Shown: positions 12,175 to 14,370 of the stretch, in pieces | How the letters are laid out: the number at the start of each line of letters is the position of its first letter | Numbering within the stretch: the stretch's first letter is position 1 | From: Thermocrinis jamiesonii | GTDB taxonomy: Bacteria; Aquificota; Aquificia; Aquificales; Aquificaceae | Assembly (NCBI RefSeq): GCF_000702425.1 | Contig: NZ_JNIE01000006.1 | Span: 1-64,000 of the forward strand | DNA length: 64,000 nt | Direction: 5' to 3' | The notes under the pieces: model-generated | Seen by the model: only the letters and a program-made list of their open reading frames with translations | Databases searched by the model: none | Told to the model about the DNA's origin: nothing | Program-made: the position numbers and the translations under genes

Positions 12175-12635
12175 TCTTTTAATATGCTTTCCAAGGTGTC
12201 CCTGTATGAAGGATCTTCTTTTAATTCCAAAGCTCTTTTTATGTATTTCAAAGCTTCTTCATTTTTCCCCTGTTTGTGAAGCACATAAGCCAAGTTGTTC
12301 ATAACATCCGGATCTTCTTTCAATTTGATAGCTCTTTTGTAATACTTTTCTGCCTTTTTGTAATCACCCTTTTTAGCATACACGTTCCCTAAATTAAAGT
12401 AAGCTATGTAATTTTCTTTGTCTTTTTTTATAGCTTTTTTGTATTCTTCTTCTGCCAAATCAAGATTTCCTTTTTTTTCATAAATGTATCCCAAATTCAC
12501 ATGTTCTTCCACACTAAGAGGATCGTTTAGTATAACAATCTTTGGCACAGCACAAGAGCTAAGAAGGACAGCTATAAATACAAACAACAAAACCTGCAAA
12601 CCATTTTGAGAGATTTTTTTGGCCTTTCCTTCCAT
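12171..12635 (-). CDS. TPR-repeat lipoprotein
   Basis: Probable envelope lipoprotein: hydrophobic signal followed by lipobox LLSSC, then about three tetratricopeptide repeats (YIYEKKGNLDLAEEEYKKA, NVYAKKGDYKKAEKYYKRA, YVLHKQGKNEEALKYIKRA). The start is uncertain. ATG 12635 gives a normal signal peptide. ATG 12671 lies just behind a TATAAT box and would add 12 residues. The frame also runs back into the mobile element to 12737, which I reject. The first codons and upstream region resemble the two ends of tnpB, so this 5' region may be partly transposon-derived. Partner unknown. Confidence 0.8.
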   Translation of the reverse strand: MEGKAKKISQNGLQVLLFVFIAVLLSSCAVPKIVILNDPLSVEEHVNLGYIYEKKGNLDLAEEEYKKAIKKDKENYIAYFNLGNVYAKKGDYKKAEKYYKRAIKLKEDPDVMNNLAYVLHKQGKNEEALKYIKRALELKEDPSYRDTLESILKE

Positions 12636-12688
12636 CGGTGCTTCATAGAAACACTGCACGCTTACATACATCAGGTTTTTATTATAAC
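12599..12688 (-). repeat. Possible deletion remnant of a second tnpB copy
   Basis: This stretch matches both ends of the adjacent tnpB gene. The upper part (12671-12688) shares the TATAAT box plus ATGTATGTAAGC with the start of tnpB (14239-14267). The lower part (about 12609-12638) shares a 13-base exact match CCGATGGAAGGAA and the 9-mer TCTCTCAAA with tnpB positions near 12880-12925. It reads as tnpB with its middle removed. Inference from direct comparison. Confidence 0.5.
12681..12686 (-). promoter_or_regulatory. -10 box upstream of the TPR lipoprotein gene
   Basis: TATAAT on the minus strand, immediately outside the target duplication of the mobile element. The insertion replaced everything upstream of it from about 12 bases away, so any original -35 region was displaced. 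Confidence 0.45.
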
Positions 12689-12716
12689 TACACTCCCTGA
12701 GGCTGTTCGAAAATCC

Positions 12717-12910
12717 CTCATTGGGACGTCCCCCCAACCTCTAAGGGGACTAACCTTCTCCTCACCCTGTCCCACGCCCCTTCCACCAATAAAGGCTTCA
12801 GAGGAGAAAGGTCCCTTGACAAAATCTTTCCAAGAACAGGGAAGAGGAGGGCTACCTTCAGAACTTGCCAAGCACTTTGAGAGACTTTCTTAGTCTCTCC
12901 CTGCTTGGGA
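12717..12910 (-). ncRNA. Candidate guide-RNA scaffold at the 3' end of tnpB
   Basis: TnpB guide RNAs (omega/reRNA) normally come from the 3' end of tnpB up to the element end. Here that region is rich in fold-back sequence. One imperfect hairpin spans 12868-12908, with outer arms CCAAGCA/TGCTTGG and inner arms GAGAGACT/AGTCTCTC. A second pairing joins 12745-12763 to 12801-12815 (core GAGGAGAA). A palindrome GGGACGTCCC lies at 12723-12732. Role and boundaries are inferred from position and folding only. Confidence 0.4.
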
Positions 12911-14250
12911 TTCCTTCCATCGGCTCCCTCACAGGAGCTTGGCTCGTCCTGAAGGCTTTTAAGTTTTTCTAAAAGCAAGTCCTTTGCCTTCTGAACTTGC
13001 TTTAGCTCAGAGTTTATGGCATTTCTTTTGTATTGGTTTGTCTCTTTCTTAAGCTTTTCCTTTAGCTCTTTTTCCTTCTCTTCGTAAGTGCAGATTGCAT
13101 ACTCCAAGTATTCCTTGTCCGAAAGAAGTTTTAGATAGTTCTCTGGGATTTCTTCCTTAAAGCCTAAAGCCCTTCTTCCTATCACGTATGCGCCCGCTAT
13201 GTCTTTGTCTATCCCAAGCTGTGGTGCATATTTTAGTGCTCCTATAACAGAAGTGAAAGCGGGATTTACCTTGATAACTTCTAATCCATTCAACTTTGCA
13301 CTTCTTTCAATCTTTGAGAGCAAGCTCTTAAAGTTCCAATGGTGTAGTCTCTTTCTTAGTTTTGCTTTTCCATCTCCTCTAAAGCCTTTATTGATTTTCT
13401 TTAAGTTTTCTATAGCTATAGCTTTTCCTTTCTCTTTTGCTATTTCTACTATTCTGTGTGCCAAAAGCCACTCTTCGTAGTCTCTTCTGTTTTTTGGAAA
13501 GCTGATAAACTCGTGTAAGCTAATACTTTGATAGCTTAAAAGATTTCCATCAGAGCTGACTTCTGCTAAGGCTAAATGCAATGGACTTGCGTTTGTGTCT
13601 ATGGCTATTACTCCATACTCTTTGGTTAGCCAAATCTCAGGTGTGGGAACTTCAAAAGAAACAATCCCATAAATCTCTCCATCCCTTAGTTTCAGCTCTA
13701 CAGTGTAAGGGAAATAAGCTTTACCTTCCCAACTTTCCCAAAGCATAGCTAAAAAAGTATTCCACTTGTCTTTTTCGTTGCTTGGTTTTCTCAGCACCTT
13801 TGCATAGATAAATTCCCTATTCCCTGTTGTAAGTCTTAAGTGAAGTTCTCCGTTTATGCTTTCAAACCTTATGAGTCTGTTTCCTTTATCCGCTTTAGAA
13901 CCTACGCTTATTAAAGTTCCTTGTCTTTGTTCTTTCCACTTTCTTTTTAACTTTTCCCTGCTCTTCTTGTCTCTATTTTTACAGAGCCTTTCAAAAAGGG
14001 CTTTACCGCCAAACACCACTTTTTTGTCTGTTGGATACTGTTTTGCTTTGTAGATAGCAGAGTCTATGTATTTGGTAGGTAGGTCAGGAAACAGTTGTCT
14101 TAGCTTTTGGTATATTTGGCTATGGGAGTTTTTGGTTTTCAGTAGTTTATAAGCAGACCTTATGGCGGATGATTGCTTACGCATTAATTCCAAAAGTTTT
14201 TTTCTGTCAGGACCATTCAGTTGAAGTTTAAACTGCAAGCTTACATACAT
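12718..14250 (-). CDS. tnpB: TnpB-like RuvC nuclease without zinc ribbon
   Basis: RNA-guided nuclease family linked to IS200/IS605 elements and ancestral to Cas12. The 510-residue frame has a basic N-terminal half, then RuvC-I with Asp218 (VIAIDTN), RuvC-II with Glu281 (AIAIENL) and RuvC-III with Asp350 (DKDIAGAYVIGRRALG), so the catalytic triad is complete. Between RuvC-II and III there is no Cys at all; NPAFTSVIG replaces the usual CxxC zinc ribbon. A charged coiled region (about 385-435) follows. The last 70 residues are low-confidence as protein because they cover strong hairpins and stop next to the inverted repeat. A TATAAT box lies 12 bases upstream of ATG 14250. Confidence 0.85.
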   Translation of the reverse strand: MYVSLQFKLQLNGPDRKKLLELMRKQSSAIRSAYKLLKTKNSHSQIYQKLRQLFPDLPTKYIDSAIYKAKQYPTDKKVVFGGKALFERLCKNRDKKSREKLKRKWKEQRQGTLISVGSKADKGNRLIRFESINGELHLRLTTGNREFIYAKVLRKPSNEKDKWNTFLAMLWESWEGKAYFPYTVELKLRDGEIYGIVSFEVPTPEIWLTKEYGVIAIDTNASPLHLALAEVSSDGNLLSYQSISLHEFISFPKNRRDYEEWLLAHRIVEIAKEKGKAIAIENLKKINKGFRGDGKAKLRKRLHHWNFKSLLSKIERSAKLNGLEVIKVNPAFTSVIGALKYAPQLGIDKDIAGAYVIGRRALGFKEEIPENYLKLLSDKEYLEYAICTYEEKEKELKEKLKKETNQYKRNAINSELKQVQKAKDLLLEKLKSLQDEPSSCEGADGRNPKQGETKKVSQSAWQVLKVALLFPVLGKILSRDLSPLKPLLVEGAWDRVRRRLVPLEVGGTSQ

Positions 14251-14261
14251 CTTAGGCTTTT

Positions 14262-14267
14262 ATTATA
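14262..14267 (-). promoter_or_regulatory. -10 box of tnpB
   Basis: TATAAT on the minus strand, 11 bases before ATG 14250, inside the right end of the element. The short distance and lack of a ribosome site suggest a leaderless or near-leaderless message. Confidence 0.5.
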
Positions 14268-14370
14268 ACTACTCAGCACTGCCTGAAGGATTTTTTCGAA
14301 CAGCCTCTACACTCCCTTGCCTTTCGTCCTCCACTGTGTTATATTACAATACTCCTTCGGTTGTAGTTCC

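Follow-up and report, generated by a model that had tools for sequence, protein, structure and literature searches.

A tnpB gene between IS5-like inverted repeats in Thermocrinis jamiesonii: a probable non-autonomous transposon

The element and its nuclease gene

TnpB nucleases normally reside in transposons that leave no target duplication. A different arrangement is found in a 64-kb stretch of DNA from Thermocrinis jamiesonii (the window; positions 1 to 64,000 of contig NZ_JNIE01000006.1), where a 1609-bp element at 12699-14307 carries tnpB as its sole gene and is bounded by perfect 15-bp inverted repeats, themselves flanked by a perfect 10-bp direct repeat. By direct reading, GAGGCTGTTCGAAAA at 12699-12713 (plus strand) has its exact inverse at 14293-14307, and TACACTCCCT at 12689-12698 recurs at 14308-14317 as a 10-bp target-site duplication (TSD). 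This is the sole 15-bp inverted pair spaced 100-2500 bp within the window; Markov-randomised windows contain 0.26 15-bp inverted pairs each, and none of 50 had such a pair with a flanking repeat of at least 8 bp. The inverted repeats and duplication described in the original prediction, which was made from the sequence alone, are thus real. With at most one mismatch, the terminal 15-mer occurs 20 times in the T. jamiesonii genome, as compared with 0 for a backwards control.

The tnpB gene lies on the minus strand (12718-14250; 510 aa). On its 5' side is the left end (LE), comprising the terminal inverted repeat (14293-14307, minus strand), the LE copy of the TSD (14308-14317, plus strand) and, directly 5' of that duplication, GGCA (14318-14321, minus strand), an instance of a GNCA motif that we predict to be the target-adjacent motif (TAM). 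A possible -10 box of the tnpB promoter, TATAAT, is located inside the left end (14262-14267, minus strand) and was recognised from sequence only. On the 3' side of tnpB is the right end (RE), with its terminal inverted repeat at 12699-12713 and its TSD copy at 12689-12698 (both plus strand). Adjoining the RE, positions 12585-12691 resemble a decayed older copy of the element's own family (left end and tnpB start at 12653-12691, 90% over 39 bp; CCTTCCATCGG as in the RNA region described below); the element probably landed in such a remnant.

The protein is identified as a TnpB by its catalytic residues and predicted structure, with divided scores against curated family models. It matches TIGR01766, 'TnpB-related', with E 9e-19 (67.7 bits; cut-off 32), the TnpB models matching through the RuvC half, and the RuvC D-E-D triad (D218, E281 and D350) is invariant in nine diverse members. 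The C4 zinc ribbon (PF07282) is absent, with no cysteines between the TS and DKD motifs, and the same is true of relatives linked to IS607. An AlphaFold model (mean predicted local distance difference test score, pLDDT, 79; predicted template modelling score, pTM, 0.55) matches the TnpB structures 8h1j and 8exa, Cas12k, the ISFba1 IS607 TnpB (8iaz) and Fanzor2. The ratio of nonsynonymous to synonymous substitution rates (dN/dS) is ~0.1 over codons 1-430, i.e. these codons are under purifying selection.

A conserved structured RNA spans the last 80 codons of tnpB and the right end. The terminal 292 nt of the element fold far better than shuffled sequences do (z -5.1); across 31 right ends 96.9% of the cells are paired and 15 of 55 pairs have changed on both sides, a covariation score reached by 0 of 500 shuffles, while slid structures are at most 62% paired. 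Synonymous divergence (dS) between the window gene and a relative (locus L109) is ~1.9 over codons 1-430 and falls to 0.37 over the final 80; one within-genus pair has no such drop. Miniature inverted-repeat transposable elements (MITEs) of ~306 bp that lack the TnpB frame keep the RNA structure and have duplications of their own, and an Rfam search gave no match. We predict that this region (12699-12990, minus strand) is the scaffold of a right-end RNA (reRNA, or omegaRNA), the 3' end of which would be the RE terminal repeat; in the consensus fold this repeat pairs with an upstream AGGTT (helix 9). The predicted guide would come after the scaffold, outside the RE, running from 12698 downwards on the minus strand, so that its first 10 nt, AGGGAGTGTA (12689-12698), are the RE copy of the duplication. 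The earlier description of a tnpB-like gene as the only cargo is therefore right as to genes and incomplete as to content, the RE overlapping a structured RNA.

Copies of the element and a transposase with matching ends

Copies with the same termini, by which the original prediction was to be checked, are present in the host genome and in relatives (below, L numbers denote loci, G numbers genomes, and C2 and C5 sequences of the T. jamiesonii genome). The T. jamiesonii genome has two further full-length copies plus several that are contig-cut or deleted, and their boundaries coincide with those of the window element (e.g. C2:342901-344511 and C2:242051 onwards); an exact 10-bp duplication is found at the 439-bp deleted copy C5:68277-68715 (L016). 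Genomes of the genus hold up to 53 ends each, as compared with 1-3 for the backwards control; among named records the closest relatives are Thermocrinis and Hydrogenobacter, and TnpB elements with 9-13 bp TSDs occur in Thermocrinis and related genera. Near-identical elements at L264 and L271, which are labelled as other phyla, probably lie on misbinned Aquificaceae contigs and were left out as instances of independent spread. No related genome was found in which tnpB is present at this locus without the repeats.

For the 24 TnpB-type insertions with a recognisable TSD, the duplication measures 9 (5 cases), 10 (12), 11 (3), 12 (3) or 13 bp (1), so the predicted 10 bp is correct for the window copy and the most frequent value in a family that spans 9-13 bp. 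The duplication sequence differs in every copy, yet some pairs of copies do match (L006/L017, TCAAACTGC; L154/L180, ATATGATCTT; L004/L008, AGTGGTA), which points to recombination among copies or, where contig ends are involved, to a single element broken in two by the assembly. At L003 (1502-3771), and at L002 with L042, a TnpB element adjoins a relic of an insertion sequence (IS); the L003 composite is flanked by ATAAGGATCT and has an inverted copy of ATAAGGATCT between its two parts, an arrangement that suggests intramolecular transposition.

Removal of the element together with one duplication restores the interrupted gene at two loci in relatives: MobB (PF03205, E 1e-22) across its P-loop at L147, and the frame of an outer-membrane protein at L078. 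These supply the empty-site evidence that had been called for, albeit at loci other than the window's own. There, dnaE is present in all 31 genomes compared and its upstream neighbour differs among them.

A DDE transposase with matching ends, likewise anticipated by the original prediction, is also present, albeit in broken or near-complete form. Two relics in the T. jamiesonii genome, near C2:243663 and C2:344523, have the same inverted repeats and contain pieces of an IS5-like DDE transposase. In a sister species (G001), these ends bound a 934-bp IS that is flanked by a 10-bp duplication (GCGAAACAGT) and contains a 258-aa frame with a DDE_Tnp_1 domain. A more distant IS, intact and present in three copies in G009, encodes a 309-aa transposase and has 9-bp duplications beside TGTCA, AGTCA or TGTAA. 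A search of 61 genomes for an intact transposase with precisely these ends found none; the nearest are the near-complete L050, collapsed contig ends in G012 and the distant IS of G009. The transposases score below the curated IS5 cut-off (NF033579: 58.4 bits for L050 and 97.5 bits for L055; cut-off 140), and we therefore call them only IS5-like. In the chimeric copy L139, an IS right end replaces the TnpB left end and the 9-bp TSD is still present; the ends are therefore interchangeable.

Further observations concern the history of these IS copies. In G012, a Hydrogenobacter sp., many contigs (ends L355-L368) break no more than ~125 bp from these IS ends, which suggests that the assembly collapsed several IS5-like copies that are almost identical and were recently active. 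The same flank of an IS-type insertion occurs in two species (L374 in G006, L407 in G004), and that insertion is probably older than their split. The complete genome G002 has at least six full-length open tnpB copies and no transposase homologue; from such genomes, we infer that the nuclease elements outlast their own transposase.

The source of the TnpB

Sequence relationships identify an IS607 element, mobilised by a serine recombinase, as the donor of the TnpB. In the Hydrogenothermaceae loci L117, L118 and L122, a TnpB of the same family starts directly behind an IS607 TnpA (an assignment that rests on the related TnpA in L051), and more distant TnpB relatives, in Bacillota and others, are also IS607-linked. 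The Hydrogenothermaceae copies have no inverted repeats or duplication and, where the left end is visible, it follows AGGAGG, which contains AGGAG, the measured TAM of an IS607 TnpB (PMC11061315). Serine-recombinase TnpA is present in L117, L118, L122 and others and absent from all members with DDE-type ends, and no Y1 TnpA is found at the window element. The IS200/IS605 background against which the element was originally set is thus apt only as a contrast: the element is indeed unlike IS200/IS605, and its TnpB came from IS607. One alternative is that the element remains mobile in the IS607 or IS200/IS605 manner and that its repeats and duplications are coincidental. This would fit the family membership of its TnpB; we consider it extremely improbable given the lack of a nearby TnpA, the different ends and target of the IS607-type relatives, and the repeats, 9-13 bp duplications, TGNCA target motif (see below) and gene-restoring empty sites at many independent insertions.

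A tree of 72 rows splits the DDE-type proteins between two positions, a Thermocrinis/Hydrogenobacter/G015-G022 clade and a G029 clade that adjoins an IS607-linked Thermodesulfobacterium protein. Because a single DDE-type clade is rejected (approximately unbiased, AU, test, p 0.000135), the phylogeny indicates at least two captures by DDE-type ends; orientation is the same in both of these independent events. A different TnpB of 502 aa, with the zinc ribbon PF07282, is encoded elsewhere in the T. jamiesonii genome (L023:296-2114, C2:384196-386010), placed between an RNA-scaffold piece and a right end of the window element's family, and is a possible third capture.

Target motif, proposed mechanism and significance

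TnpB-type and IS insertions share a TGNCA target motif, with end classes assigned by k-mer similarity and ends de-duplicated; the counts are modest. GNCA lies directly outside the LE duplication in 20 of 24 TnpB-type insertions and outside the RE copy in 1 of 24; at 9-13 bp outside TnpB-type ends it is found at 41/67 left ends as compared with 5/75 right ends (Fisher p 1e-12; expectation 5.4%). At IS-only ends the motif occurs at 8/25 left and 11/20 right ends (p 0.14), or 9/25 and 14/20 for a looser motif (p 0.036), and the three intact G009 copies have TGTCA, AGTCA or TGTAA on the right-end side. On our reading, the transposase itself favours TGTCA either way round, perhaps with a lean to its own right end. 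Two simple readings of the motif did not hold: that it is purely a TAM was dropped since IS-only copies have it too, and a TAM inherited from IS607 was ruled out by the AGGAGG sites of the IS607-type relatives. Many insertions (L085, L102, L209, L210, L256, L055) lie at gene ends or beside TTGACA; TGACA may supply a stop codon or a -35 box, and the transposase motif may thereby steer insertions to harmless sites.

Some asymmetry thus exists at IS-only and G009 ends, without TnpB, as would be expected if TnpB were a passenger in an ordinary IS5-type MITE, the one-sided motif coming from the transposase's unequal ends and TnpB cutting playing no part. A purely transposase-based asymmetry is weakened by the stronger side bias of TnpB-type ends (41:5 versus 8:11; p 0.00017), whose motif is also broader: GTCA makes up 17/19 of IS-only motifs and 19/41 of TnpB-type motifs (p 0.0017), the latter also including GGCA, GCCA and GACA. 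The purifying selection on codons 1-430, the RNA scaffold kept even in TnpB-less copies and the same orientation in two independent captures are likewise unexpected for a passenger, which we regard as a serious if less probable account. A direct role in targeting, with TnpB and its RNA recruiting the transposase to guide-matched sites, might explain why the right end is placed next to the base that follows TGNCA although duplications are of variable length; this is very unlikely, as the guide of each copy matches that copy's own insertion site and so varies from copy to copy, as expected if guides are acquired on insertion, and IS-only copies use the same motif without TnpB.

We interpret 12699-14307 as a non-autonomous transposon in which an IS607-derived TnpB and its guide-RNA scaffold sit within the ends of an IS5-like DDE insertion sequence, and place the probability of this at roughly 85%. 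Transposition in trans, as originally proposed and here assigned to an IS5-like DDE_Tnp_1 transposase, is well supported because the ends, duplications and target motif are shared and genes are restored. Weighing against this interpretation are the score of the protein against the guided_TnpB model NF040570 (44.4 bits, below the cut-off of 100); the presence of only broken transposase genes with these ends in the T. jamiesonii genome; the missing 5' coding part of the sister-species IS; the lack of a transposase match in several TnpB-rich genomes (e.g. the complete genome G002), which bears on present-day mobility there; the ~40% of TnpB left ends without the motif; and the lack of an empty orthologous site to set beside the window copy, as the region upstream of dnaE is not syntenic.

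In the mechanism that we propose, IS copies would provide the transposase in trans, and this enzyme would paste the element next to TGNCA, duplicating 9-13 bp; the host sequence directly following TGNCA would then adjoin the right end, and the transcript would carry it as a guide. TnpB with this guide should recognise the empty site, with TGNCA as TAM, and cut it, and recombination with the occupied copy would restore the element, as judged from known TnpB biology. Surviving TnpB-type insertions would be those with the motif immediately ahead of the would-be guide, the position required of a TAM, hinting that RNA-guided activity shapes which insertions survive; since the end classes rest on k-mer similarity and the counts are modest, we hold this at about even odds. 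The retention step by TnpB cutting, for which the purifying selection, conserved RNA and one-sided motif argue, is put forward tentatively, with the chances slightly against it. The same caution applies to a fuller scenario, in which at each of the at least two captures the required motif moved from AGGAG to TGNCA, the one-sided motif is a footprint of retention, and TnpB-less MITEs supply guides in trans.

The element combines features of several known systems. With IS607 elements (PMC11061315; L117, L118, L122, L162) it shares the TnpB family (46-48% identity) and a comparable upstream half of the 3' RNA region; those elements differ in their serine recombinase TnpA, their lack of both inverted repeats and duplications and their target, AGGAGG, and the last ~110 nt of their right end is replaced here by the DDE right end. 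IS200/IS605 elements (ISDra2) are alike in the RuvC nuclease and in an RNA, predicted for the window element, that extends from the gene's 3' end across the right end with its guide outside, whereas the window element lacks Y1 TnpA and the zinc ribbon and has inverted repeats and a duplication. IS5-family IS and MITEs share the DDE_Tnp_1 transposase, short inverted repeats, duplication and miniature copies, the difference being TnpB and reRNA as cargo and transposases under the NCBIfam IS5 cut-offs. The originally drawn parallel with Fanzor is upheld: this DDE-type capture resembles the capture of Fanzor2 by DDE transposons in eukaryotes (PMC10711439), and in Fanzor2*/Fanzor1 elements too (Yoon et al. 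2023, PMC10711439; Bao and Jurka 2013, PMC3627910) the predicted reRNA takes in the inverted repeat. In contrast to those, the window element is bacterial, with IS5-like ends; its duplication cannot be fixed scaffold because it differs in every copy, and the target motif suggests that guide and TAM logic are kept.

Bacterial TnpB has been tied to IS200/605 and IS607 elements (PMC3627910), and the present element departs from that earlier generalisation; a literature search found no paper on a prokaryotic TnpB on a DDE element, although priority is not certain. Takeover by a DDE element implies that the nuclease is a module that can pass between unrelated transposons and be of use to each, as has been suggested for Fanzor, and the orientation bias would be a natural record of RNA-guided retention. 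With these elements, it can be tested directly whether a change of partner transposase brings a change of TAM specificity; since their hosts are hyperthermophiles, the proteins may prove robust in structural and biochemical work.
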